Of a stretch of 64,000 nt of DNA, positions 177-15,739 are shown one piece after another. Each line of letters opens with the position of its first letter. The first letter of the stretch is position 1. The notes under the pieces were generated by a model, which made no database searches, was not told the origin of the DNA, and saw only the letters and a program-made list of their open reading frames with translations. The position numbers were made by a program, and so were the translations under genes. The stretch is from Porphyromonas macacae DSM 20710 = JCM 13914 (GTDB lineage Bacteria; Bacteroidota; Bacteroidia; Bacteroidales; Porphyromonadaceae): the NCBI RefSeq assembly GCF_000379945.1, contig NZ_KB904150.1:27213-91212 (forward strand). Reading direction: 5' to 3'.

Positions 177-737
177 TTAATCTTCGCCATATTTTTCACG
201 GCCTGATTGATAACTGTTGTTACCCTTACAGTCTATTGCCACGATGACCGGGAGTTTGTCTACGGTAAGGCGTCTTACAGCCTCAGTGCCCAAATCGTCA
301 AAAGCAATTACTTCTGCCGTTTTTACGCATTTTGCCATCAACGCTGCCGCTCCGCCGATAGCTGCGAAGTATACGCCTCTATGCTTGATGATAGCATCGA
401 CCACCTCCTTGTTCCTCAATCCTTTGCCGATCATCACTTTTAATCCTTTTTCCATTAAAACCGGAGAGTAGAGATCCATACGATAGGCTGTAGTGGGGCC
501 GACAGAACCTATCGGTTTTCCCGGCTTGGCCGGGCAGGGGCCGGCATAGTAAATTACGGCTCCCCGGAAATCGAAAGGCATGGATTCGCCTTTTTCCAAC
601 ATTTCGCACATACGTTTATGTGCAGCATCACGTGCTGTGTAGATTGTTCCTGAAATATATACCATATCACCTGCATGCAGGTTGCTTATCATCTCGTCGG
701 TAAAAGGTGTGACAAGCTCTTTTCTTTGTTCGCTCAT
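177..737 (-). CDS. Mesaconase (class I fumarase family), beta subunit
   Basis: 186 residues, the C-terminal half of a two-subunit iron-sulfur hydro-lyase of the class I fumarase / tartrate dehydratase family. The family signature GPTT..RMD is present at about residues 80-88, preceded by a Pro/Gly-rich loop (GPCPAKPGKP), and MIGKG follows at about 102-106. In a glutamate mutase operon the likely substrate is mesaconate, hydrated to (S)-citramalate. Fumarate hydration is also possible because the family is promiscuous. It lies 21 bases after the alpha subunit gene and is the last gene of the operon. Confidence 0.9.
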   Translation of the reverse strand: MSEQRKELVTPFTDEMISNLHAGDMVYISGTIYTARDAAHKRMCEMLEKGESMPFDFRGAVIYYAGPCPAKPGKPIGSVGPTTAYRMDLYSPVLMEKGLKVMIGKGLRNKEVVDAIIKHRGVYFAAIGGAAALMAKCVKTAEVIAFDDLGTEAVRRLTVDKLPVIVAIDCKGNNSYQSGREKYGED

Positions 738-758: not shown

Positions 759-1601
759 TTATAATTCAGCCTCTGCATGGCGTGTGGCATGACAACCGAT
801 ATTAACGGCAACGGGCAGGCCTGCGATGTGGGTTGCACCGGTGAGGATATTAACGGCCATTGCGGTTGTTGTTCCACCGAATCCCGCAGGACCGATACCG
901 AGCTTATTGATTTTTTCCAACAGTTCTTTTTCAATTTCTGCCAGTTGAGCATTTTCATTTAATTTATCCACGGGGTGTAAAAGGGCTTTTTTACTCAGAA
1001 AGGCAGCTCTTTCCATTGTACCGCCGATACCCACTCCGACGATAATCGGAGGACATGGATTGGCTCCTGCAACAGACACCGTTTCAATAACGAAATCTTT
1101 TATTCCTTGCAGCCCCTGGCTTGGTTTAAGCATAATGAGCCGGCTCATGTTTTCACTCCCGAATCCTTTAGGAGCAACGGTTATGTGGAATTCTTCGCCC
1201 GGAACCATTTCGTAGTGAATGATTGCAGGGGTATTATCACCGGTGTTGATACGATTGATCGGATCTTTTACGACACTTTTTCTCAAGTATCCCTGTGTAT
1301 AACCTTGGCGTACCCCTTCATTGATGGCCTCTTCGATAAATCCGCCGTTGATATGGGTGTCTTGTCCCATTCTGACGAATACGACTGTCATACCTGTATC
1401 TTGACAGATAGGGCTTTTTTCGTTGTATGCTATATCGGCATTTTCTTCAAGTGTAGCCAATATATCGCGTCCGAGAGGAGAGCGTTCTGTTTTGCGACTG
1501 CATGCAAAACAGGTTTTAATGTCTTGCGTAAGTTCGGTGTTTGCTTTGATGCAGAGATCGCGAACGACATCGACGATCTTTGTAAATTCAATTTGGCGCA
1601 T
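759..1601 (-). CDS. Mesaconase (class I fumarase family), alpha subunit
   Basis: 280 residues from the ATG at 1601 (MRQIEFTKIV). A longer frame to 1658 would overlap the upstream gene and adds no family sequence. The protein is the [4Fe-4S] catalytic half of a class I fumarase-type hydratase. The three cluster cysteines are visible in the contexts ICQDTGM, NPCPP and IGCHATRHAE. The operon context assigns it to mesaconate to citramalate, the step after methylaspartate ammonia-lyase. Fumarase activity cannot be excluded from sequence. It follows the P-loop/AlaX-like gene by 10 bases. Confidence 0.9.
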   Translation of the reverse strand: MRQIEFTKIVDVVRDLCIKANTELTQDIKTCFACSRKTERSPLGRDILATLEENADIAYNEKSPICQDTGMTVVFVRMGQDTHINGGFIEEAINEGVRQGYTQGYLRKSVVKDPINRINTGDNTPAIIHYEMVPGEEFHITVAPKGFGSENMSRLIMLKPSQGLQGIKDFVIETVSVAGANPCPPIIVGVGIGGTMERAAFLSKKALLHPVDKLNENAQLAEIEKELLEKINKLGIGPAGFGGTTTAMAVNILTGATHIAGLPVAVNIGCHATRHAEAEL

Positions 1602-1611
1602 ATTAAGTGAT

Positions 1612-2562
1612 TTATATGTCAGACCGGTGTAAGAAGTAGGTTGTATTACGATCTTCAATATTGTCGTAATTTCCTCCTATCAATCCTACCAAGCAGTAGG
1701 TTTTTGTTTTTTTGTCATGTACCAGATACGGAACGATGTGGAAATCTTCTATCTTGGATGTATTCGAAACGTGAATACGCGGCCCATCGCATGGAATGAT
1801 TCGATCTCCGATTCTTATGTGTTTGTCATCCTTATAACAAACATCGAGTTTTTCATCGATCATTTTCTGAACGCGTTTTGTAATCGCGTCAAAATCGATC
1901 TCCGGTTTTTCGTAGAAACGCAATACAAAACCATTTCGGATATCGGAGCTGTAGAATGAATTTTCATTAAGATTCTCTACCTCTTCCAATAGAGATATTA
2001 CGGTCAGCTCTTCTGCTGTATGAGCCATTCGCCTGAATATCAGGGAGAAGTGAACCATGTCATAAATACCTTGGGGAGTCGGACCGAAAATAGATGGCCG
2101 GGATACAATAATTTCCTCCCCGATACCGACAATTAAATCGGCATTTATTTTAAGGGCCGGGTAGAGGAGATTGAAGTGCTCGACAACAACCCGTCGATTG
2201 TTTTTTAGTATTTCCTTGACATAATCCACAATATCGGACATCTGCATGAAAGCCATTAAAAAACGCATATCCATGTGATAGGTGGAAGCGTCAGGCAAGC
2301 CTTCGTGCAAAGCATCTCGAACCAGCATAATTTTACGCGGGTTCATTATGTCGTCATCATTGGCTAATTCCAGTCCGGGAAACATCCCTTTAATCAGGGA
2401 GGATTTTCCCGAACCGGCATCGCCAATAATACCTATTAATCGGTCATTGTAGTTCAAATGACGATGCGCAATGACTTCCCCCAAAAAAATGATCCGTTCT
2501 TTGCCGCGCGGAGCAAAATATTGGGCTGATACAAAGTATTCTTGAAGCAGATTGTGTGTCAT
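1612..2562 (-). CDS. P-loop protein with degenerate AlaX/tRNA-SAD-like region
   Basis: 316 residues, function unknown. The N-terminal half is a P-loop NTPase with Walker A GDAGSGKS at residues 47-54, preceded by a hydrophobic strand; LIVGIGEE at about 143-150 looks like a core strand. Residues about 165-275 resemble the second additional domain of alanyl-tRNA synthetase and AlaX editing proteins. HTAEEL at 181-186 stands where those have HTATHL, GFVLRF at 211-216 precedes a long helix, and CDGPRIHVSNT at 258-268 matches their C.G.HV.NT end. Only some zinc ligands survive, so tRNA editing is doubtful. It lies between DUF4387 and mesaconase genes of the glutamate fermentation operon. Confidence 0.7.
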   Translation of the reverse strand: MTHNLLQEYFVSAQYFAPRGKERIIFLGEVIAHRHLNYNDRLIGIIGDAGSGKSSLIKGMFPGLELANDDDIMNPRKIMLVRDALHEGLPDASTYHMDMRFLMAFMQMSDIVDYVKEILKNNRRVVVEHFNLLYPALKINADLIVGIGEEIIVSRPSIFGPTPQGIYDMVHFSLIFRRMAHTAEELTVISLLEEVENLNENSFYSSDIRNGFVLRFYEKPEIDFDAITKRVQKMIDEKLDVCYKDDKHIRIGDRIIPCDGPRIHVSNTSKIEDFHIVPYLVHDKKTKTYCLVGLIGGNYDNIEDRNTTYFLHRSDI

Positions 2563-2579
2563 CGAACTTATTTTTTAGT

Positions 2580-2897
2580 TTAGAAATCAATCACCATTCC
2601 CATCAGAGGACCATGCTGTTGGGCGCCGTAAACATCTGTTTCGCCTAAAGAACCGGATGGAATGGGGCGGACGATTGTTATTTTGACTGCTTTCGCCGGA
2701 TCAAAATATACAAGATTGATGATATCTGATTCGGGTATACCGTATAGAGCACAGAAATTCTTTTCGTTAATAGCTCTTGCAGCCTTTACTTTATTGAATG
2801 TTTCAAAATCCTTGAAAATGACATCGAAAGTCAATTCGTAAGGACCGGAATTCTTACTGCGAATAACGGAAGCAAGGTCAATCAATTTATGTTGCAT
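2580..2897 (-). CDS. DUF4387 family protein
   Basis: 105 residues, recognised as a DUF4387-type protein from its overall sequence (start MQHKLIDLASVIRSKN, then GPYELTFDVIF, later IVRPIPSGSLGETDVYGAQQ). DUF4387 proteins are usually encoded beside, or fused to, AtuA-type proteins, and here the gene follows the AtuA-like gene by 19 bases. No catalytic motif is known to me. The pairing suggests that the two proteins form one complex, but their reaction is unknown. Confidence 0.8.
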   Translation of the reverse strand: MQHKLIDLASVIRSKNSGPYELTFDVIFKDFETFNKVKAARAINEKNFCALYGIPESDIINLVYFDPAKAVKITIVRPIPSGSLGETDVYGAQQHGPLMGMVIDF

Positions 2898-2916
2898 TGC
2901 ATTATCTGTTTATCGG

Positions 2917-4275
2917 TTAAAATTGAATGTATTTGATCGGGAATAGACTGATCGGGTCTTCCACTTTCATTAAGTGGTAAACGTTGAATTCGTAAACTTC
3001 GCCGACGTGGCAGTCTGAGGGAGAGAAAGGGAAAGCAAGGTTTCCCGCCGTAGAAATACGTCCTTCATAACCATAGTGCAGCATTGTGCTCCGTGCAAAA
3101 CTGCAGATCGTATCTGCTTGAGCCTGCGTGGGAGCTACCGCCTCGATGATAATGAGAAGTTCGTCCGAGTTGGATTCCGGAGTGTTCGGGAACATGTGCA
3201 TGACTCCTTTTTTACCATATATTTTGAAATCCAGAAAGAAGTTGCCGAAACCGGAATTCTTGAAGTTGTCTTTTACACGTGCTTTAACGTTTTCAACGAC
3301 ATCATCGATTTTGCTGATCATGACAGGGTCATGAGTTGCGGCGGGAGAAATAGTACGGTAACCGACTTTACGGACACCTTCCAATTTTACGAAGTAATCG
3401 TCGGTCGGCACGAATTTGCTACCACGAACTTCGACTTTATTGTCGTCGATTTGGGTAAATGTAGATTCGTGCAGGTCGATTGCACCGCCGGGACCCGGTA
3501 AAAACAGAGGATTGCTTTTTTCGTATAAAGTATGTGCCGCAACCGAAAGAGTGGTACATTTTCTGACCGGAGATAACGGCTCTAACACGAAACTGTCATG
3601 ACGCAGATAGCCGAACATGCAGTCGCTACCGCTGCCCGGCAAACAGGTAATGGCTGCACACTCCAATATTTTGCCCATGTGGATGGCAAGCCCTTTGGGA
3701 AAACCTTCTTTAATAGCAAGAGCAGAGAAGACGCTCGGATCGTATGAACGGCCGGCCAGAATTACCTGGGCACCCTCTTCCAAAGCCTTGATGTAAAGCT
3801 CTTCGCCAATTTGGGCTACGATATGGACGGCTTCATCGATATCCTTTGCAGTAATGGGGCCGGCCGGTTTCAACGGCTCTACCTCGCCTTTAGCCAGTTT
3901 TGCCTTGACCGTCTCCTTATCCAATTCGGATTCGATAACGGCCATTTTGAATTTTAACTGTTGCTCCTGAGCTATTTCTTTGATGATTTCAACAGTTAAT
4001 TCAACATGTGGGTGTGCTCCGCTACCGCCGGCCGTACCGATAATTACCGGTATATTGTTTTTTAAGGCCGCAGGGATCATGATCGACAAGTCTCTTTTAA
4101 CGGCATTTCTATCCGTAAAAGAAATACCGGCACCTAAATAATATGGTCCCGGGTCTGTGGAACCTGCATCGACTGCAATAACGTGAGGTTTGCGTTTCAT
4201 TCCTTCCTGGAATGATTCTTCGGGAAATCCGTATCCCAAAATTGCCGTGGGGGATAAAACTCTTATTTCTTCCAT
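2917..4275 (-). CDS. AtuA-like (DUF1446 family) protein
   Basis: 452 residues, similar to the acyclic terpene utilisation protein AtuA (DUF1446). Visible features are an acidic loop VDAGSTDPGPYYLG (about 35-48), a glycine-rich IIGTAGGSGAHPH (about 78-90), ILAGRSYDPSVF (about 172-183), and a C-terminal HVGEVYEFN. AtuA was named from geranyl-CoA breakdown, but no terpene genes are present here. The gene sits directly after methylaspartate ammonia-lyase and before DUF4387, within the glutamate mutase operon. A role in the methylaspartate route (handling of a branched C5 acid, or enzyme maintenance) is inference; the biochemical function is not known. Confidence 0.8.
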   Translation of the reverse strand: MEEIRVLSPTAILGYGFPEESFQEGMKRKPHVIAVDAGSTDPGPYYLGAGISFTDRNAVKRDLSIMIPAALKNNIPVIIGTAGGSGAHPHVELTVEIIKEIAQEQQLKFKMAVIESELDKETVKAKLAKGEVEPLKPAGPITAKDIDEAVHIVAQIGEELYIKALEEGAQVILAGRSYDPSVFSALAIKEGFPKGLAIHMGKILECAAITCLPGSGSDCMFGYLRHDSFVLEPLSPVRKCTTLSVAAHTLYEKSNPLFLPGPGGAIDLHESTFTQIDDNKVEVRGSKFVPTDDYFVKLEGVRKVGYRTISPAATHDPVMISKIDDVVENVKARVKDNFKNSGFGNFFLDFKIYGKKGVMHMFPNTPESNSDELLIIIEAVAPTQAQADTICSFARSTMLHYGYEGRISTAGNLAFPFSPSDCHVGEVYEFNVYHLMKVEDPISLFPIKYIQF

Positions 4276-4308: not shown

Positions 4309-5553
4309 TTAGAGAACATCCTTGAGTGCCAATATCCGGCTCATCTCGTTAAATACAATCATATAGCCTTCGTCTACACCCATACCCGGTTTCGCGAGAT
4401 ATTGAACGGGTTGCGTGGCCATTGCGATGTGCGCACAGACCTCTGCCGAACGGTTTGTTTCATTACATGTGCCACCCAAATATGCACCCATATTGTTTTT
4501 CTTGCAGAAAAGCACAGCTTCGATAGAGTTATTGATACCTCCCAGGTCCGGAGTTTTGATCTGAGCCATGTGCCCGGCTTTCTTGGCCGTGAAATCGCGA
4601 ATATCTTCTAAGGTGTTGCACCATTCGTCCGCTACGATTTCGGCTTCTGTGTTCAATTCCTCCATATAACGGCGGATAGAGGCCAAAGCATCGATTTGGG
4701 CTTCTTTCTCACCCATATCTACAGGGCCTTCTACGCGAAGGTGGAATGGCGCTGCAATTTTAGACAGGTTGGCAATGTATTCGGCTATTTTCTTGAAATC
4801 ATTATTGAATACCAATCCCAAAGTACCGTACACGTCGATATGGATGGTCGGGTTGTAAGCGTCGAAAGGTTTATGTTCGATGATACGGTTACGCAGCCAT
4901 TCTACATATGCTTCGATCTTTTCACCTTTCAATCCTACTTTGTCTTCCACATGGTTAAATAAGGCATGAGGCAGTACGGCAGCTGCTTTCATGATCATTT
5001 TGTCTGCATTCATGTAGCGGTCATCACCTGACTGCGTAAAGATGGGAACCATGCTGTCTGCAATGCGAACATTATATTCTGCTGCGATAACTTGTGCCAT
5101 CAGTTTATTTTGACTTTTGGCAACAGCATCCAAACAGGCCTGAGTGACACCATAACGGATGGCCGTATGGTAAGGTTTACCTGTTTTCGGGCATACATAT
5201 TTATCTACGATGTCTGCCATTTCGCGGAAAGATGTAATCTCTTTTCCTTCATACATGGGGGCAATTTCTTTCTCAATGATGGGAATGAAGTTTTCTGCCA
5301 AAAATAAAGGATCGCGTCCTCCTGCCCCTGAATATTGAACGGCTGCACAATCTCCCACTGCAATGGCTCCGTTTTCCAGAATAAACATTACAGATATGGA
5401 TTCTCCCATTTGTCTTACGGAAGTAAAACCCGGGGTCAGAACATCACCGACATAAAAAGCTCCGTCATTTTTTGCACCGGCTTTAATTGCCTTTTGGTCG
5501 TCGAAGTAAAATCCGGTTTTTCCCGGAGAACAAATTACCTTTTTAATCTTCAT
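4309..5553 (-). CDS. mal: Methylaspartate ammonia-lyase
   Basis: 414 residues, the length of the clostridial enzymes (about 413). It eliminates ammonia from L-threo-3-methylaspartate to give mesaconate, using Mg2+ and an enolase-superfamily TIM barrel. The catalytic lysine lies in MAQIKTPDLGGINN near the C-terminus, and the general-base histidine is in FNHVEDKVG at about residue 194-200. The enzyme takes the product of glutamate mutase, which is encoded immediately upstream. An 87-base gap containing a strong hairpin separates it from glmE, so its expression relative to the mutase may be set after transcription. Confidence 0.96.
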   Translation of the reverse strand: MKIKKVICSPGKTGFYFDDQKAIKAGAKNDGAFYVGDVLTPGFTSVRQMGESISVMFILENGAIAVGDCAAVQYSGAGGRDPLFLAENFIPIIEKEIAPMYEGKEITSFREMADIVDKYVCPKTGKPYHTAIRYGVTQACLDAVAKSQNKLMAQVIAAEYNVRIADSMVPIFTQSGDDRYMNADKMIMKAAAVLPHALFNHVEDKVGLKGEKIEAYVEWLRNRIIEHKPFDAYNPTIHIDVYGTLGLVFNNDFKKIAEYIANLSKIAAPFHLRVEGPVDMGEKEAQIDALASIRRYMEELNTEAEIVADEWCNTLEDIRDFTAKKAGHMAQIKTPDLGGINNSIEAVLFCKKNNMGAYLGGTCNETNRSAEVCAHIAMATQPVQYLAKPGMGVDEGYMIVFNEMSRILALKDVL

Positions 5554-5640: not shown

Positions 5641-7092
5641 TTAGTTTTTACGTCCTACGAGGAAGCCTTTTCCAATAGCGTAGACATCGTCGATAACCAT
5701 TTGGAAACTAACATCGCGGTGTTCAAATTTTCCCCGTTCTTCCAGTTTCATTCTGTGGAAATCTTTCAAATCCCGGCTCAAGGGCAGGTTACCCATCTCC
5801 AAAATTCTGACTGCTCCGTAGTTATCCCGTGCCGGCATCACTTTTCCGGCATTGAAGCGGCTGGGAGCAAATGGTATATCTAAAACTCCGGCTTCAAAAG
5901 CAGCAATAGAACCGATGGCAATATCTCCTTTACCGAGTTCTTCTATTTTATCCAGTATGCAATTGACTTCCCGGTTGATGATTTCACTTTCTTTTACGAC
6001 TTCGGGTATTTCTCGCAGATCCTGATCACGAAGCATCGAAATAACCTGTTTTGTAGCTCTCAAGCCTGCTGCGTTGGCCTCCATCGTGGGAACCCCCATA
6101 GCTTCGTGTGGAGTTTTGACGATAACTTTCGTTGCTTTGCTTAAGGCCGCAGCTGCTGCACCCCATGAGATCACACCGAATGCCTTCGATTCGTCTTGTG
6201 GGAATCCACCCATCCATTGGTGGAATACGGTGGTGACACGTACATCATTGAACCCGTATTTGTGAAGATATTCTTCGGTCATGTTTTTCAAAGACCTGAC
6301 AGCCGCAATGTCTTGAATCAGGTTTCCGCACTGACCGTAGCCGACAGTAATATCTTTTACCCCCTGAGTGGCGGCAAGCAACGCTTCGATAATAGCAACG
6401 GAATTGGAAATACAGGGGGGAATCAATGTTCCGGTCAGAGGTCCGAACGGTTCGCGGTTAATAGAGACACCCGCTTCTTCATACATACCCACCAAACGGT
6501 CTGTATACTGCCAGTAGCGAATGGTTTTTTCCAAAGAGTGATTTTTAGAATACGGGATATTGTATGAAATACCTCCACCTTCGTAAGAGGTGAAACCTCC
6601 GGCAATGGAGATTTCAGTCAATAAACGAGCATCGGGGGTACCGTGGCGCACCTGAACCGGATTTTCCAATGCAGAAGTAACAGCACGGCAGATGTCCACC
6701 CCATAATTGACGATAGGGAACCCGTTTAGCATCGATCTGCCACTTTCTTTACTTTTTTCAATACCGACTTCAGCTTCATGATATCTGTTCAAGCGGGTGT
6801 AACTGTCTACGGTAGAAGGGAGCAAATCTGCTTCTCCTTCATTTTCGAGATACTGCAACAGTTTTATATGCTGCGTATAAAGAGCAACACCGGCACGTGG
6901 CTGAATCAGTGTCACACCATCTTTTACTGCTTGAGCTAATTTGTTGCCAAACCGTCTGTTGTGGGCAATAGATTGTTGATATTTAACCGCCTCATCGAAG
7001 TTTACACCTTTTCCGGTCGGCCATTGTTGAAGTACTTCTTCGCGTTCGGCAAAGAATACGTCGTCAGAAAGTTTTTTGTTTGTTACTTCCAT
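5641..7092 (-). CDS. glmE: Glutamate mutase, catalytic E (epsilon) subunit
   Basis: 483 residues, the same length as Clostridium cochlearium GlmE. With GlmS it forms the adenosylcobalamin-dependent mutase that rearranges L-glutamate to (2S,3S)-3-methylaspartate by a radical mechanism. The family pattern is clear: [15 protein letters not shown] near residue 60-75, [23 protein letters not shown], and [12 protein letters not shown]. The gene lies 14 bases after glmL. The ATG at 7092 has no competing start close by. Confidence 0.97.
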
Positions 7093-7106: not shown

Positions 7107-8492
7107 TTAGATTTGTTTGATTTCTTTGTTCAGAATGGTCAATGCCAAATCAGGGTTTATTGAGCTAAGCAAACCCATAGCTGCAAAAATGTAACGTGCG
7201 TCGATAAAATAACGTGGATTTTTGGGTTTTGCAGATTCGGCATGATTTAAGTCATATTTTGCACCGGACAATATTTTATCCGGATTGTTGCTATTGATGA
7301 TAACACCTCCGATACCAATGACAAAAGGCGTATTCATTAGGTCTTTGCCGGTAAGAGAGTAAAACTGCCCCATGGGAGAGTAAACCGAGCTGATAGTGCC
7401 GCAGTGCCGTTGTACGGCAAGTGAAACCGTGGCCTTGCCTAAGCCTTCCTCTATAAGTTCGTTTTCGCTGCCTTTATCGGCTATCGTTTCAGGGTTTGCG
7501 GTGCAATGTTCCACCCAGGAGCGGATTTTATCCTCGGATACACCCGTTTCCTTTTCAACTTGTGTAATATCGATTGCATCCAATACATGACGGAGGCTGT
7601 ATCTCATGCCCAAATCTCCTTCTACCGTTCTTTTGCTGTAAGGCTCGGGCAGACCTTTAACCATAGTTGCTTCCATGGTCGGCTCTCCAGTAGCCATCGA
7701 GTAGACATCCGTAGTGGCTCCGCCTATATCTATGGCCATCAAGTCTCCATGCCCGGGTATATTCTTCGTTCCCTTGCTGTATAATTCACATCCGTTCATG
7801 ACAGCCAAAGGCGTGGGGATGATTTTGTATTTGGTCATCTTTTGTGCTGTAGTCAGCCCTTTGGCTTCGATGATTTTACGAATGAACAGATCTTTGATCT
7901 GTTCTTTTGCCGGACCGATGTTTAACTCGTTAAAGTTCGGCATCACATTGTCTGTGATTACATAATCCTTATCCGAGTTCTTGAACAGTTCATCGATCTC
8001 GTCGGCTGCATTTTTATTCCCGGCTACGATTACTGCAAAATTTCGGTCGATGGTGCAAAGTTTTTTTGCATTTGCAACGATAACTTCTTTATTTCCTCCA
8101 TCCGTCCCCCCGCACAACAAAACCAAATCCGGACAAATGTCATAAATCTCTTGCTGCTCCTTGTTTGAAATCTCAAATGCATACGTTTTTACGACTTTTG
8201 CACCGGCACTCGAGGCAGCCATGCGAGCTGCTTTTGAAGTGAGTTCTGGTACCAGACCCAAAGCCACCATTTTAAGCCCTCCGGCGGCACTGCTACAACA
8301 AAGCATTTCATCATAATCGAATTTCCCTCCCACAGCTTTGTTCAGTTTATCCATAGCCGCGTTGAAACCGTCCAAAACATTTGTTTCTATGGTGGTAAAG
8401 GATGATGAGGTAGCTATTACTTCTTTTAATTCAGAATCAATAGCCGTTAGTTTCGTGTATGTACTGCCAAAGTCTACCGTTAAGTATTTCAT
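7107..8492 (-). CDS. glmL: GlmL/MutL, glutamate mutase reactivating ATPase
   Basis: 461 residues of the ASKHA (actin/Hsp70-like) fold. The phosphate-1 loop is [10 protein letters not shown] at residues 7-16, a second phosphate loop is [14 protein letters not shown] in the middle, and an adenosine-type motif GIGGVIINS lies near the C-terminus. Proteins of this family are encoded beside glutamate mutase and are thought to exchange damaged cobalamin on the mutase using ATP. The gene lies between glmS and glmE, the usual S-L-E order of clostridial operons, and follows the glmS stop by about 80 bases with a strong hairpin at the junction. Confidence 0.94.
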
Positions 8493-8559: not shown

Positions 8560-8588
8560 CCTGAAAATCGTTTTAATCGATTTTCAGG
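8560..8588 (-). promoter_or_regulatory. Perfect 11-bp hairpin across the glmS stop codon
   Basis: CCTGAAAATCG (8560-8570) and CGATTTTCAGG (8578-8588) pair perfectly around a 7-base loop. On the mRNA the 5' arm is the last coding part of glmS, the stop codon falls in the loop, and the 3' arm is in the glmS-glmL gap. The sequence after it has no U-run, so it is unlikely to be an intrinsic terminator. A 3'-end stabiliser for an abundant glmS mRNA, or a processing site, fits better. Confidence 0.7.
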
Positions 8589-8986
8589 ATTTTTTTCAGG
8601 TCGGCAATGGTTTCTTCAATGGGAGTTCCCGGAGGATATACTTTATTAAATCCCATTGCTTCGAAACGTTTTGCAACGTCTTCAAAGTTCTGTTTACCTA
8701 CGACAAGATTGCCGCCGGCTAAAATAGGAATGTTTTTCAGCCCGGCTTCATCGCATTTTTCTCGTAATCCCTGGCAGTCGATTTCTCCATGCCCGTAAAG
8801 CGATGATACCAGAATCGCATCTGCATTTGTTTCGATTGCAGCTTCGATGTACTCTTCCTGAGAGACCATTACTCCCAAGTTAATAACCTTAAAACCTGCC
8901 TGTTCCAGAGCAAATGCAATGATTTTGTTCCCTACGGCATGAGCATCGGCACCGATAACGCCGGTTACTACAGTTTTTTCGTTCAT
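8573..8986 (-). CDS. glmS: Glutamate mutase, cobalamin-binding S (sigma) subunit
   Basis: 137 residues from the ATG at 8986 ([10 protein letters not shown]), exactly the length of Clostridium cochlearium GlmS; the frame stays open to 9262, but that extension crosses the promoter. It binds adenosylcobalamin in the base-off/His-on mode. The motif DAHAVG at 14-19 is the DxHxxG box whose histidine ligates cobalt, followed by SSLYGHGE and GGNLVVG of the cobalamin fold. It is the first gene of the methylaspartate operon. The symbol glmS is used here for the mutase subunit and not for glucosamine-6-phosphate synthase. Confidence 0.97.
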
Positions 8987-9663: not shown

Positions 9664-10143
9664 TTACATGCCTACCATTGCCGGCACAGAGTTGAAAATC
9701 AAAATCGATACAAGTAAGGCCAAAATAGCATACAACTCAGGGAACACCGCCATTACCATGGTTGCACCGAATACATTGTGACCGGAACCGATGGCTTGAA
9801 TACCATTGGCACAAACTTTAGCTTGACGCAGAGCAGAGTAAAGACCTACAACACCCAAAGCCAATCCTGCAAAAAAGATAGCCCAGGCTGCCAAGATATT
9901 AAGTTTGCCTGCAGCCACCAGGTTTTGGATAAGACTTGAAGCCATAAAGAAGCCGACGAATCCGTAAAGACCCTGTGAGCTGGGTAGTGCACTTAAACCG
10001 ATATACTGACCCAAAGCATCCGGGTTTTTCTTCATTGAGCCTACTACCGCATTACCGGCTATGGTTACTCCAATACTGCTACCGATACCTGTTAGTCCGA
10101 CCATTAGAGCCACACCAAAATAAGCCAACATCATTTCATTCAT
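9664..10143 (-). CDS. ntpK: V-type ATPase subunit K (proteolipid rotor ring)
   Basis: 159 residues with four membrane helices in two hairpins, the duplicated V-type c-subunit form. The first hairpin ends in LPSSQGLYGF (Gln57). The second carries the ion-binding carboxylate Glu136 in VFPELYAI, with Gln107 in LRQAKV. These positions match the Leu/Thr/Gln/Gln/Glu ligand set of the Enterococcus hirae Na+-ATPase, with Ser for Thr, so Na+ transport is likely but unproven. It is the last gene of the operon and is followed by a strong terminator. Confidence 0.95.
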   Translation of the reverse strand: MNEMMLAYFGVALMVGLTGIGSSIGVTIAGNAVVGSMKKNPDALGQYIGLSALPSSQGLYGFVGFFMASSLIQNLVAAGKLNILAAWAIFFAGLALGVVGLYSALRQAKVCANGIQAIGSGHNVFGATMVMAVFPELYAILALLVSILIFNSVPAMVGM

Positions 10144-10180
10144 AATTCTGTTCTTTGTTTTATTGATTATACTTTATTGA

Positions 10181-12001
10181 TTATTTCTTGATTCGGAAAG
10201 GAGAGTAAGGTTTTCCTCCTCCTTCAAACTCATTGTTTTTGTAAAACTCCACAAAAGTGAGACGTAACGGGTGAACTAATGAACTGATTATAGCCAAGCC
10301 CATATTCAGTCCATGTCCGATAAGTAGAATCAGGAGCATCAAAGGAAATCTGATATACCACGGTGCCGTAGCTGTAGTATCGATGGCCAAAGAGTTAAAA
10401 ACGCTTCCTAAAATACCGCTTGTCAAACCGATAGCAAACAGCCGGATGTATGAGAGTGTATCTCCCAAGAGTCCGGAAGCCATATTATATGTATTCCACA
10501 AACCTGCTCCTACGTTGATCAGAGGGTTTTTACCGGGTGAATTATAAAAGAATGCAACCAAAAGACCTGCTATCGCAACTCCCCAGCATACATAGATGAC
10601 AGTGGGAGATATTCCGGCAATTAAGACCGGTAAAATCAAAGCCGCTCCGGCTGCAATCAATACCAATACCCATGCAAAGCGGGAAAGGCTGTATTTTAAT
10701 CCTTGCTGTTTTTTTACTTTAAGAGCTGCGATGAACTTACCGAACAGTATTTGGATAAGACCGATGATAATCGATAAGGTCATCAGATTGTCCTGGTTCA
10801 AAATAAAAGATTCTTTTCTTGCATAGGGTAGAGTAACTCCAAATACAGTGCCCACCATAAGCCCGATAACCAAGGCTCCTCCTCCGAGATATTGAAGAAG
10901 GGTGCAAACATTTTTAACTCCTTTGCTGTCACTCTTGATTTTACCGATGGTAGCAGCTATCAGCAGCAACAAGCCATAGCCGGCATCTCCGAAACAGAGA
11001 CCGAAAAACAGCAAAAAGAATGGAGCGAAAAGCGGGGTAGGGTCTATTTCTGTATAGTTGGGTAAGGAAAACATCTCGGTAATAGGCTCAAAAAAACGTG
11101 CAAAAGCATTATTCTTAAGTTTTACCGGAATTTTGTCCCCTTCTTCGATTTCCATTTTTTTGAAGAAATAACCTCCTGCTTCCAATGTCTGCTCAAGAGT
11201 CTCGACACTCTCTTCCGGTACCCAACCCTGTAATACTTTAACCGTTTCGCTTGCCTGAGATTCGGCTTGAATTAAAGCATTGGAGAAGTCGAAGCTGCTT
11301 TCGAGCTGTTTGTCGTACTCTTCCAACTCCCATAAACGGTTGTTGGCAAAATGACGCAGACCTTTTATGTTTTCTACCTGCAGATTTTCGATACTGTTCA
11401 ATTCTGCTTCAAATTCGGAGAGACTCTTATTCGGCATCCGAATTAAGTCTGCTTCCGGTTTCAGATAATCTTCTCCCTGTTTATTAATTGTAATGAAATA
11501 GACGTTTGAGCGTACATTATTAATTACAACAGCATTGTATTTATCTTCCCAGTCTTCTTTGAAGTTAGATTTGGTAGTGGAGAAGAAATCTATGATATAG
11601 CCATTATCCCGAAGTTTTTGAATGGTGGACATGTCGAAATCTCCCCAATTGCTCATATCATTTACTTCACGCTGTTTAGCTGCAAATTCTTGCTCTAACT
11701 CATTTCGTCTCTGAAGTAAATACTGTGCTTCTTTTAGAGATTCAAGCCCCTCTTCCATGGAACGCTCGGTCTTTGCAACAGGCGATTCTGTTATGTTTTC
11801 CATATCTTGAAAAGACTTAACCGCCCGCATTGTGGCTTTTAGATCTTTTCGCGCTTCGATTGTTTCCTGAAGCGTAGCCACATCTTTCGGATTCTGTGTC
11901 TCCCCGATATGTACAACACCTAATGAGCGTAGTTTATAGAGAAATTCTTTATACTCCTGATGGAAGATCAGGAATATGTATTTTTCCATTTTTACGATCA
12001 T
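10181..12001 (-). CDS. ntpI: V-type ATPase subunit I (a subunit)
   Basis: 606 residues. The N-terminal half is soluble, with coiled-coil stretches rich in Glu, Lys and Gln (about residues 40-130 and 180-270). The C-terminal half has several membrane helices starting near FFLLFFGLCFGDAGYG and containing YIRLFAIGLTSG, the region that carries the arginine of the ion half-channel. It forms the stator and ion path against the K ring. Its start overlaps the D subunit stop (ATGA), with a strong ribosome binding site (AGGAGG). Confidence 0.95.
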   Translation of the reverse strand: MIVKMEKYIFLIFHQEYKEFLYKLRSLGVVHIGETQNPKDVATLQETIEARKDLKATMRAVKSFQDMENITESPVAKTERSMEEGLESLKEAQYLLQRRNELEQEFAAKQREVNDMSNWGDFDMSTIQKLRDNGYIIDFFSTTKSNFKEDWEDKYNAVVINNVRSNVYFITINKQGEDYLKPEADLIRMPNKSLSEFEAELNSIENLQVENIKGLRHFANNRLWELEEYDKQLESSFDFSNALIQAESQASETVKVLQGWVPEESVETLEQTLEAGGYFFKKMEIEEGDKIPVKLKNNAFARFFEPITEMFSLPNYTEIDPTPLFAPFFLLFFGLCFGDAGYGLLLLIAATIGKIKSDSKGVKNVCTLLQYLGGGALVIGLMVGTVFGVTLPYARKESFILNQDNLMTLSIIIGLIQILFGKFIAALKVKKQQGLKYSLSRFAWVLVLIAAGAALILPVLIAGISPTVIYVCWGVAIAGLLVAFFYNSPGKNPLINVGAGLWNTYNMASGLLGDTLSYIRLFAIGLTSGILGSVFNSLAIDTTATAPWYIRFPLMLLILLIGHGLNMGLAIISSLVHPLRLTFVEFYKNNEFEGGGKPYSPFRIKK

Positions 12002-12618
12002 ACTGCCTCCTCCTTCCTGTTGTTATTGTTTCGCTTTTCTAAATTGGCACGCATAATCTTTTGCGACGATTTAGAGAGGCTTTCTTCATCCTCCAGATAA
12101 CGCTTGATTTTACGAATAGCATCTTGATAGCCCGGAATCTGCACTTTTTCAAACAAGTTGACTTTTTGGGTCGTTTTCTTTCGTGCATATTCCAGAAAAT
12201 CCAATTTCAATTTCAAAAACTCTGCCTGTATACCGGTGGTGGCCAAACGCTCGAGCAGTTCGATTCCTTCTGCATACCAGGATGGGGAGTTGAATAGACT
12301 GAAGGGCTTGATCTCGTAGTGGATATCTTCTAATACGGGTATAACCACGCCTGCCACTTTCTTTGTAGAAAGATCTACACGGTTTACGGATATCAGGTTC
12401 GGATTAAATTCATCCCACATACTAACCATACTTTGATAGCCCTGGATTTCCTGTTCAAGTTGCTGTTCCAATTTTACCACTTCTCGCTTGGTTTGTTTGA
12501 CCTGAATACGCAGTGCACTTTCCTTACTCTTGATTGTCGGAAGAGTGCGCAAACGCATTTTCAGGTTCTTTTCCTGCTGCTGAAGGGATGTTTTATTGTA
12601 TTGAAACTTAATAGCCAT
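11998..12618 (-). CDS. ntpD: V-type ATPase subunit D (central stalk)
   Basis: 206 residues, helical and coiled-coil in character throughout, as expected for the rotor shaft that turns inside the A3B3 head. The start MAIKFQYNKTSLQQQEKNLKMRL matches the family's N-terminal helix, and the C-terminal helix includes VNLFEKVQIPGYQ, a conserved V-type D pattern. It overlaps ntpI by four bases and follows ntpB by 10 bases. Confidence 0.92.
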   Translation of the reverse strand: MAIKFQYNKTSLQQQEKNLKMRLRTLPTIKSKESALRIQVKQTKREVVKLEQQLEQEIQGYQSMVSMWDEFNPNLISVNRVDLSTKKVAGVVIPVLEDIHYEIKPFSLFNSPSWYAEGIELLERLATTGIQAEFLKLKLDFLEYARKKTTQKVNLFEKVQIPGYQDAIRKIKRYLEDEESLSKSSQKIMRANLEKRNNNNRKEEAV

Positions 12619-12628
12619 ATCTATCGAT

Positions 12629-13972
12629 CTATTTTCCGTGCTTTACCCGGGTATTTTCAGGCCAATATTCATCAATAAGAGCTTGCTTGATGTTAACTTC
12701 TGCAGGAGTGAAATATTTTGAGAAAAGCCCCCATGTCTTATCCAACATTTCTGTGGTGTCGAGATTAACATCGATTGCTAATAATTGAGAAGAATAGTCT
12801 TCGGCGAACCTTAATGCACGATTGTCGTAATCCGTGAGGTCGAAACCGTTTTCCATTTTCGTTTGAGCATTTGCGGCATCAGAGTAAAGCCGTACGGCGG
12901 CATTCATTACCTGTGGGTGATCCTGACGGGTTTTCTTGCCGATTACCAATTGCTTCAGACGGGAAAGAGAACGGAACGGGTCTACGATAACCTTTCCGAC
13001 GTTTGCATCTTTACGTAAATAAAGCTGACCTTCCGTAATATAACCCGTATTGTCGGGTACGGCATGTGTGATATCGCCACCGGACAGTGTCGTTACTGCA
13101 ATGATTGTGATAGAGCCGCCATCGGGGAATTGTACTGCTTTTTCATAAATCTTAGCCAAATCCGAATAAATAGAACCCGGCATGGAGTCTTTCGACGGAA
13201 TCTGGTCCATACGGTTAGATACGATAGCCAAAGCGTCGGCATAGTTAGTCATGTCTGTTAGCAAGACCAGTACCTTCTCATGTTTTTCTACAGCAAAATA
13301 TTCTGCCGCAGTTAATGCCATATCCGGAATTAACAAACGTTCTACAGAGGGTTCTTGAGTGGTATTGATAAAACTGATGATACGGTCTAAAGCCCCTGCG
13401 TTGCTAAAAGTATTTTTGAAGTACAGGTAGTCGTCATTGGTAAGTCCCATACCTCCCAAGATAATTTTATCGCTTTGTGCGCGGAGGGCTACCATCGCCA
13501 TAACTTCATTGAAGGGTTGGTCCGGATCTGCGAAAAATGGAATTTTTTGTCCGGTTACCAAAGTGTTATTCAAATCGATACCGGCGATACCGGTGGATAT
13601 TAGTTCCGAGGGTTGATCCCGACGTACGGGGTTTACGGAAGGTCCTCCGATTTCTACCTCTTTTCCCTCAGGCATAGGACCGCCATCTATCGGTTCACCG
13701 TATGCGTTGAAGAAACGTCCGGCTAATTGATCTCCCACCTTTAATGTCGGGGCTTTGCCGGTGAAAATGACTTCGGCGTTTGTCGGTATGCCTTCTGTGC
13801 CTCCGTATACCTGAAGCGTAACTTCATCCCCGATAATACGCACAACCTGTGCCAAACGTCCGTCTATGGTTGCAAGCTCGTCGTTACCGATACCTGTAGC
13901 GTGAAGCATACAAGTGGCTTTGGTAATATTAGATATCTTGGTGTATATTTTTTGAAATGCTTTCGTTGCCAT
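12629..13972 (-). CDS. ntpB: V-type ATPase subunit B (regulatory)
   Basis: 447 residues, the non-catalytic head subunit. It has the beta-barrel, nucleotide-fold and helical domains of the family but lacks a Walker A loop: the position reads GQKIPFFADPDQPFNE. LLTDMTNYADAL and SNRMDQIPSKDSMPGS are typical of V-type B subunits. It alternates with subunit A in the hexamer. It lies 15 bases after ntpA. Confidence 0.96.
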   Translation of the reverse strand: MATKAFQKIYTKISNITKATCMLHATGIGNDELATIDGRLAQVVRIIGDEVTLQVYGGTEGIPTNAEVIFTGKAPTLKVGDQLAGRFFNAYGEPIDGGPMPEGKEVEIGGPSVNPVRRDQPSELISTGIAGIDLNNTLVTGQKIPFFADPDQPFNEVMAMVALRAQSDKIILGGMGLTNDDYLYFKNTFSNAGALDRIISFINTTQEPSVERLLIPDMALTAAEYFAVEKHEKVLVLLTDMTNYADALAIVSNRMDQIPSKDSMPGSIYSDLAKIYEKAVQFPDGGSITIIAVTTLSGGDITHAVPDNTGYITEGQLYLRKDANVGKVIVDPFRSLSRLKQLVIGKKTRQDHPQVMNAAVRLYSDAANAQTKMENGFDLTDYDNRALRFAEDYSSQLLAIDVNLDTTEMLDKTWGLFSKYFTPAEVNIKQALIDEYWPENTRVKHGK

Positions 13973-13987
13973 ATTTCGTAGTATATC

Positions 13988-15739
13988 TTATTTATCTTCA
14001 ACCATTGCTTTTAATTCAGCCTCATATTTCTGGAAGTTATTGCTGTTATACTCTGAGTAGTTCATCTGTTTGCAGATGTTAATTAACTTTTTAAAGTATT
14101 CAGATACTTCTACGAAGCCTTCAAACTCAAACTCTTTTCGGCAAATATCGGAAACGAGGTTCATCATATACTCTTGTCTTTCCAGCGGAGTATTGCAGTC
14201 GATATCGTCAAAAGCGTCTTGCTGCAGGATAACGAAGTCGATTAATTCTGCTTTCCAGAATGTAACGTGATAATCTACGGGAACACCGTCATCTCCAAGA
14301 ATATTGATTTGTTCCGCAATATCGCGTCCCTGATGCAGTCTCATTTTCAGGTCGTTGATTTTATTGACCCAGTTTGCACCGATACGGTTGCTGATATACT
14401 CTTTAAATTCCGGGTATTCCAAGTATTTGGAGTAACTGTCTATGGGGTTTACAGCCGGATAGCGTTTGCTGTCTGCACGCTCTTGTTGCAAAGCATAGAA
14501 ACACCGGGCTACCTTCTTTGTATTTTCGGTAACAGGCTCTTTAAGGTTACCGCCGGCAGGGGATACGGTACCGATAAAAGTTACAGAACCGGTTTCCCCG
14601 TTATTTAGATTGACGTATCCTGCACGTGCATAGAAGTTTGCTATGATAGCGGAAATATCCATCGGGAAAGCATCCGGGCCGGGTAGCTCCTCAAGGCGGT
14701 TACTCATCTCACGCAGAGCTTGTGCCCAACGTGACGTGGAGTCGGCCATTAAAAGAACTTTCAATCCCATGGTTCTATAATACTCAGCAATAGTCATTGC
14801 CGTATAAACAGAAGCTTCACGAGCGGCAACAGGCATGTTTGAAGTGTTTGCAATAATAATGGTACGTTCCATCAACTTCCGGCCTGTATGAGGGTCTTCC
14901 AAGTGCGGGAATTCGGCAAAAATTTCTACAACTTCGTTCGCGCGCTCTCCGCAAGCTGCAATAATTACGATATTGGCATCCGCCTGTTTTGAAATAGCGT
15001 GCTGGAGAACTGTTTTCCCCGTACCGAACGGACCGGGGATAAATCCGGTACCTCCTTCGACAATGGGGTTGATCGTATCGATGGTTCTAACGCCTGTTTC
15101 CAATAATTTGAAGGGTCTGGGTTTATCGCGGTAGCAGGTGATCGGTACTTTAACAGGCCATTTCTGAACCATAGTTATTTCATGGTCTTTTCCTTCACCG
15201 TCCGTGACCACTGCAATCACGTCGTTAATACGGTAAGAACCTTCCTTTTCTACACTTTTAACTTTATATTTTCCTTCAAAGACAAAAGGTACCATGATTT
15301 TATGAGGCTGGAAATTTTCATCTACCTCCCCTAACCATGAACCGGCCTGAACGATGTCTCCTTCTTTGGCGAGAGGTTTGAACTCCCATACCTTGTCTGC
15401 ATCTAAAGCTTCGGTATAGTCGCCTCGTTTCAGGAATACACCTTCCATCTTGTCCAGGTCATTTTGCAGTCCGTCATAATTCTTAGACAGAAGTCCCGGT
15501 CCCAATGTGACCTCGAGCATGTGTCCGGCAAACTCTGCTTCATCGCCGATACGCATGCCACGGGTGCTTTCAAAAACCTGTACATAGGCTTTTACGCCAT
15601 CTATTACCTTGATGACCTCGCTCATCAACTTTACGCCACCTACGGTAATGTAGCAAATCTCATTCTGAGATACAGGTCCGTCAACCTCTAAAGTTACCAG
15701 GTTGGAAACGATACCTTTGACAACTCCTTTTGTAGCCAT
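13988..15739 (-). CDS. ntpA: V-type ATPase subunit A (catalytic)
   Basis: 583 residues. The catalytic P-loop GPFGTGKT lies in the segment FIPGPFGTGKTVLQ, the catalytic glutamate is in AACGERANEVVE, and MADSTSRWAQALRE follows. The segment before the P-loop is the V/A-type insertion absent from F-type beta subunits. In anaerobes such enzymes mostly hydrolyse ATP to pump Na+ or H+, but synthesis is possible. It lies 8 bases after the DUF2764 gene. Confidence 0.97.
   Translation of the reverse strand: MATKGVVKGIVSNLVTLEVDGPVSQNEICYITVGGVKLMSEVIKVIDGVKAYVQVFESTRGMRIGDEAEFAGHMLEVTLGPGLLSKNYDGLQNDLDKMEGVFLKRGDYTEALDADKVWEFKPLAKEGDIVQAGSWLGEVDENFQPHKIMVPFVFEGKYKVKSVEKEGSYRINDVIAVVTDGEGKDHEITMVQKWPVKVPITCYRDKPRPFKLLETGVRTIDTINPIVEGGTGFIPGPFGTGKTVLQHAISKQADANIVIIAACGERANEVVEIFAEFPHLEDPHTGRKLMERTIIIANTSNMPVAAREASVYTAMTIAEYYRTMGLKVLLMADSTSRWAQALREMSNRLEELPGPDAFPMDISAIIANFYARAGYVNLNNGETGSVTFIGTVSPAGGNLKEPVTENTKKVARCFYALQQERADSKRYPAVNPIDSYSKYLEYPEFKEYISNRIGANWVNKINDLKMRLHQGRDIAEQINILGDDGVPVDYHVTFWKAELIDFVILQQDAFDDIDCNTPLERQEYMMNLVSDICRKEFEFEGFVEVSEYFKKLINICKQMNYSEYNSNNFQKYEAELKAMVEDK

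Follow-up and report, generated by a model that had tools for sequence, protein, structure and literature searches.

The window, a stretch of 64,000 nucleotides of the genome of Porphyromonas macacae DSM 20710 = JCM 13914 (contig NZ_KB904150.1, positions 27,213 to 91,212), contains an operon of the methylaspartate route of glutamate breakdown. Three genes of this operon, located between those of methylaspartate ammonia-lyase (MAL) and mesaconase, encode an AtuA-like protein, a DUF4387 protein and a P-loop protein. The first two are assigned here to a CmlAB-type citramalate lyase, and the third to an accessory role in the methylaspartate pathway rather than to a third lyase subunit; the probability that both assignments hold together is estimated at roughly 0.87. 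CmlAB is an already known enzyme, through entries of the Protein Data Bank (PDB), and the interest lies in the unnamed, pathway-bound P-loop family.

Genes of the predicted citramalate lyase

Chains of the PDB entries 9erq and 9evf, named by the depositors as citramalate lyase subunits A and B, were found to match both proteins over nearly their full length. The AtuA-like protein aligns by phmmer at residues 4-443 of 452 (E 9.2e-150) with 9erq_A, titled ‘Acyclic terpene utilization AtuA family protein’ and ‘Citramalate lyase, subunit A (cmlA)’, and the DUF4387 protein aligns at residues 1-105 of 105 (E 1.1e-27) with 9erq_B, titled ‘DUF4387 domain-containing protein’ and ‘Citramalate lyase, subunit B (cmlB)’. 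The Pfam families AtuA and DUF4387 are represented in the respective proteins at 83.7 bits (cut-off 22.8) and 138.2 bits (cut-off 27). The same pair follows MAL in the operon of E. coli O157:H7, where the AtuA-like gene is annotated as a second MAL; CmlA and CmlB of the window are 54% and 46% identical to the E. coli proteins. Although both window chains match the PDB proteins, and the E. coli homologues belong to the same pathway neighbourhood, the window proteins differ at about half of the residues. Long invariant stretches are present in the 58 CmlA and 61 CmlB sequences compared.

Genes cmlA and cmlB are adjacent within the methylaspartate operon of a genome free of CitF: no matches to CitF (PF04223) were detected across the genome of P. 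macacae (2.2 Mb, 31 contigs, 99.68% complete). They almost certainly encode the two subunits of a CmlAB-type citramalate lyase, the activity in this organism being read from the molecule name in the PDB. CmlAB would cleave (S)-citramalate, which the adjacent mesaconase supplies, to pyruvate and acetate, and the operon would thus hold a route from glutamate to these products. A study of E. coli O157:H7 from 2015 lists the AtuA-like gene of the E. coli pair as DUF1446 of unknown function and describes what becomes of citramalate in this species as unclear (PMC4682846). Among the literature matches listed there was no open paper on CmlAB, and DUF4387 was mentioned in none of the papers searched.

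The first-pass annotation of the window reported that no citramalate lyase was visible, which is true of the CitDEF type only, and ascribed an undescribed function to the AtuA-like and DUF4387 proteins, which match PDB chains named CmlA and CmlB. Its proposal of an alternative fate for mesaconate or citramalate points to the probable role of the AtuA/DUF4387 pair as far as citramalate is concerned, and does not cover the P-loop gene.

The citrate-lyase-type citramalate lyase of Clostridia, CitDEF with CitCXG, serves the same pathway step in the same kind of locus, but its proteins are unrelated to CmlAB. The distribution of both types was analysed in 80 glmE loci, the best-scoring of 551 confirmed, from named genomes with a leaning to Bacteroidota; CitF was searched with E. 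coli queries. The closest relatives of the P. macacae glmE point to the Bacteroidota as well. Genes of Cml only were found in 50 loci, CitF only in 12, both in 1 and neither in 17, of which 9 end within 1.8 kb of glmE. The two unrelated types occur together in a single one of the 63 loci with a visible lyase; the other 62 have one type each. The lyase is also swapped within one class sample, with cmlAB in loci L177-L180 and L186 and citDEF in L181-L183 and L185, all of which contain MAL, glmE and the P-loop gene. Given the near-complete alternation and the swap within one class, CmlAB and CitDEF appear to be unrelated answers to the same pathway step. Genes cmlA and/or cmlB are present in 51 of the 80 loci, 37 of which also contain the P-loop gene, and the arrangement is therefore not due to chance.

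Distribution of the P-loop gene

The P-loop gene was found in 61 of the 80 glmE genomes, in 45 within the glmE locus and in 16 of the other 35 elsewhere in the genome; it is broken into two frames in L061 and cut by the contig end in L047. In 391 genomes of the class to which the genome of L077 belongs, where carriers were counted at E <= 1e-10, the P-loop gene is present in 14 genomes and glmE in 22, including 12 with both, 2 with the P-loop gene only and 10 with glmE only (Fisher p 2.5e-15, a statistic that ignores genome relatedness). One of the two P-loop-only genomes, G698, contains a contig with the order MAL-cmlA-cmlB-P-loop, ending inside MAL. In the other, G943, a short open reading frame (ORF) in L176, around 8001-8318, matches only the last 107 positions of the editing-like half of the P-loop family, and may be a free-standing relative of this half or a chance remnant.

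Among 395 genomes of the phylum of P. macacae, strong matches to glmE or the P-loop gene were found only in its own genome. Among 198 genomes of the order of the L020 genome, the P-loop gene is present in 2, the L020 genome included, and the other one also has glmE. Weak matches were not counted (17 of 18 for glmE, including one that slightly exceeds the family cut-off, and 4 of 5 for the P-loop gene in the phylum sample; 9 of 11 in the order sample). The MAL family is above cut-off in all 17 tested P-loop carriers and DUF4387 was found in 10 of them; the MAL matches of G943 are weak and probably represent other enolase-type proteins.

Neighbours were counted at 72 places, with one genome included twice (L087, L138). 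Upstream of the P-loop gene lie cmlB (46), citC (5), MAL (2), glmE (1) and unlabelled genes (18); downstream lie mesA (34), citG (4), mesB (1) and unlabelled genes (33). In L181-L183, L185 and L189 the P-loop gene is located between citC and citG/citX, in particular between citC and citX in Peptoclostridium acidaminophilum (L189).

As the P-loop gene is retained with either lyase type, its product very likely assists the methylaspartate pathway as an accessory protein and is not a lyase subunit. The gene also occurs together with CitDEF and in the absence of DUF4387, and the reading of the three genes as one complex was rejected for this reason. Accordingly, the view of the first-pass annotation that the three genes serve the methylaspartate route is supported, while their treatment as one unit had to be abandoned, because the P-loop gene stays where CitDEF replaces CmlAB. 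The annotation had also named, as a finding that would refute its view, an occurrence of the trio mostly away from methylaspartate genes. This is not the case for the P-loop gene, as 12 of its 14 carriers in the 391-genome sample have glmE, whereas distant AtuA/DUF4387 pairs do lie away from these genes. The idea that an adenosyltransferase takes the place of the P-loop protein was not supported, as P. acidaminophilum has both.

In the 49-kb operon stretch of E. coli O157:H7, the P-loop gene was not found, and the fumarase there is a single chain. A single-chain fumarase (539-564 residues), encoded beside the operon, also replaces the two-subunit mesaconase in the glmE loci L013, L021, L031 and L041, which lack the P-loop gene; the link may be phylogenetic. 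The genome of L060 (G430, Desulfovibrionaceae) has two neighbouring MAL matches on contig C68, separated by about 0.5 kb, and a further, partial one elsewhere; glmS-glmL-glmE-P-loop are located on another contig than the MAL pair, and DUF4387 was not found in this genome.

Predicted structure and possible role of the P-loop protein

The P-loop protein of the window showed nothing above cut-off in Pfam or NCBIfam. In its AlphaFold2 (AF2) model (pLDDT 84.8), fold matches predict a TsaE-like P-loop domain at approximately residues 1-160 and an AlaX/ThrRS editing-like domain at approximately 170-300. The TsaE fold carries Walker A and an HxDxxR-type motif; the score with TsaE (PF02367) is 15 bits, below the cut-off of 26.6, and, unlike TsaE/YjeE, the ATPase of tRNA t6A synthesis, the protein has NDDD in place of SPT. 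The AlaX/tRNA_SAD editing fold is present in the predicted structure, at a Pfam tRNA_SAD score of 18.9 bits, below the cut-off of 24.

The classical metal site of editing domains consists of HxxxH and CxxxH, represented in E. coli AlaRS/ThrRS by HSATH, CGGTH and CRGPH. In 73 P-loop proteins, collected with the family’s own profile, H181 and C258 are invariant (73/73), whereas position 262 is R in all 73 (CxxxH to CxxxR) and position 185 carries D, E or Q (HxxxH to HxxE[D/E]). Consequently, two of the four classical metal-site residues are replaced, which distinguishes the family from AlaX and the AlaRS/ThrRS editing domains. Comparison of the family profile with E. coli TsaE, ThrRS and AlaRS gave weak support.

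Identity with the organism’s TsaE for t6A synthesis was rejected, as a full, normal TsaE is encoded elsewhere in the genome. Kinship with ABC ATPases was also rejected: the matches found by sequence cluster around Walker A, and TsaE-like folds outrank other P-loop folds. In the records of P. acidaminophilum and Prevotella nigrescens, the two of the plasmid collection that hold the gene, it is annotated as ‘hypothetical protein’. The P-loop protein represents a conserved family without a name and with an unusual domain make-up.

We tentatively infer, as the likeliest of the roles considered, that the two tRNA-related domains may serve quality control, dealing with a misplaced 3-methylaspartyl group. 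The editing-like domain would, probably on tRNA, remove or sense this group (or a related acidic aminoacyl group); the invariant arginine would take the place of the classical metal-binding histidine, and the TsaE-like ATPase domain would drive the cycle or release. That the fusion is a dedicated ATP-driven proofreading factor, preventing the incorporation into proteins of 3-methylaspartate, the unusual amino acid that glutamate mutase makes, is a doubtful possibility. To our knowledge, neither a TsaE-like/editing-domain fusion nor an editing activity towards an acidic non-protein amino acid that arises within a fermentation pathway has a precedent, and among the literature matches listed there was nothing on methylaspartate mischarging or a TsaE/AlaX fusion. 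The canavanyl-tRNA deacylase CtdA is likewise a standalone editing protein tied to a non-protein amino acid, but its editing domain is of another type (B3/4) and its abstract mentions no ATPase domain (PMC10018355).

The main rival, a rather unlikely one, makes the P-loop protein a partner of GlmL in the reactivation of glutamate mutase. TsaE resets TsaD, a protein of the ASKHA fold, using ATP; by analogy, the TsaE-like protein would drive GlmL, for which an ASKHA fold is predicted as well, to exchange the damaged B12 cofactor, with the editing-like domain as a docking or ligand-sensing part. No close solved relative of GlmL was found by sequence, so its predicted fold was tested, and the AF2 model (pLDDT 88.6) matches FtsA and the diol dehydratase-reactivating factor. 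However, GlmL accompanies glmE in loci of genomes without the P-loop gene, and thus does not need the P-loop protein; moreover, the P-loop gene usually adjoins lyase or mesaconase genes, not glmL, and the editing fold is left unexplained.

These neighbours would fit a factor that matures or protects the iron-sulfur mesaconase or the adjoining lyase. The four-base overlap with mesA in 9 of the 34 places where it follows directly, the position among cit genes noted above, and the lack of the P-loop gene in 5 of the 6 loci with a single long chain as the only mesaconase-like ORF point in the same direction. Such a factor is nevertheless improbable: the gene is present with both unrelated lyase types, is retained in the L060 locus, in which no genes of a lyase or a mesaconase were found, and, of 46 loci with a mesaconase of two subunits, is missing from 8, some of these genomes having it elsewhere; in addition, C258 is the only invariant cysteine in the family alignment A2.

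Related AtuA/DUF4387 pairs and operon composition

Plasmids of Variovorax (L192) and Cupriavidus (L193) contain distant AtuA-DUF4387 pairs beside genes of RraA-family, tricarboxylate-uptake binding and oxoprolinase proteins, and because of these neighbours the AtuA/DUF4387 family probably has other substrates besides citramalate. Such relatives, at 42% and 36% identity, could suggest that the substrate of the pair in P. macacae is a different C5 acid or CoA ester, which is very improbable in view of the close match to the named CmlAB, the operon position shared with the enterobacterial pair and the near-complete alternation with CitF among 63 loci. A Klebsiella pneumoniae plasmid (NZ_CP138807.1, L191, 7986-16045) carries an AtuA-DUF4387 pair with fumarate hydratase and several dehydrogenases; its AtuA-like protein is 58% identical to CmlA of the window, and the cluster may represent a mobile citramalate or mesaconate pathway.

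The operon has the order glmS, glmL, glmE, MAL, AtuA-like, DUF4387, P-loop, mesaconase alpha and mesaconase beta (Table 1). The gaps from MAL to mesaconase alpha are 33, 19, 17 and 10 bases, as the first-pass annotation had given them (10 to 33). Pfam likewise supports MAL, MutE, MutL and both fumarase halves in the operon proteins. An alternative start of mesaconase alpha, TTG at 1658, would overlap the P-loop gene.

Table 1. Genes of the methylaspartate operon in the window
Gene and product	Position	Strand	Length and support
cmlA, AtuA-family subunit A of citramalate lyase (predicted)	2917..4275	minus	452 aa; phmmer to PDB 9erq_A; Pfam AtuA
cmlB, DUF4387 subunit B of citramalate lyase (predicted)	2580..2897	minus	105 aa; phmmer to PDB 9erq_B; Pfam DUF4387
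P-loop protein, probable pathway-linked accessory	1612..2562	minus	316 aa; AF2 model, fold matches, 73-sequence conservation, distribution
MAL, methylaspartate ammonia-lyase	4309..5553	minus	TIGR01502 569 bits
glmE, glutamate mutase subunit E	5641..7092	minus	TIGR01503 774 bits
glmL, glutamate mutase accessory protein, predicted ASKHA fold	7107..8492	minus	NF040745 632 bits; AF2 model
glmS, glutamate mutase subunit S	8573..8986	minus	start at internal ATG; NF002612 from residue 93 of longer ORF
mesaconase/fumarase alpha subunit	759..1601	minus	NF004885 412 bits; start at ATG 1601
mesaconase/fumarase beta subunit	177..737	minus	NF005310 281 bits

Directly upstream of glmS, apparent genes of a V-type ATPase, with ORFs judged by eye, are located at 9664-15739 on the minus strand; they would agree with a fermentative, anaerobic life whose energetics are ion-driven.

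The CmlAB match supplies what was missing in the work on E. coli O157:H7, where the fate of citramalate stayed unclear (PMC4682846), and the operons of Porphyromonas, Prevotella, Dysgonomonas and their relatives can now be annotated with their lyase. The tie of the P-loop family to one pathway raises the question of whether fermenters must protect translation or the B12 enzyme from this route.
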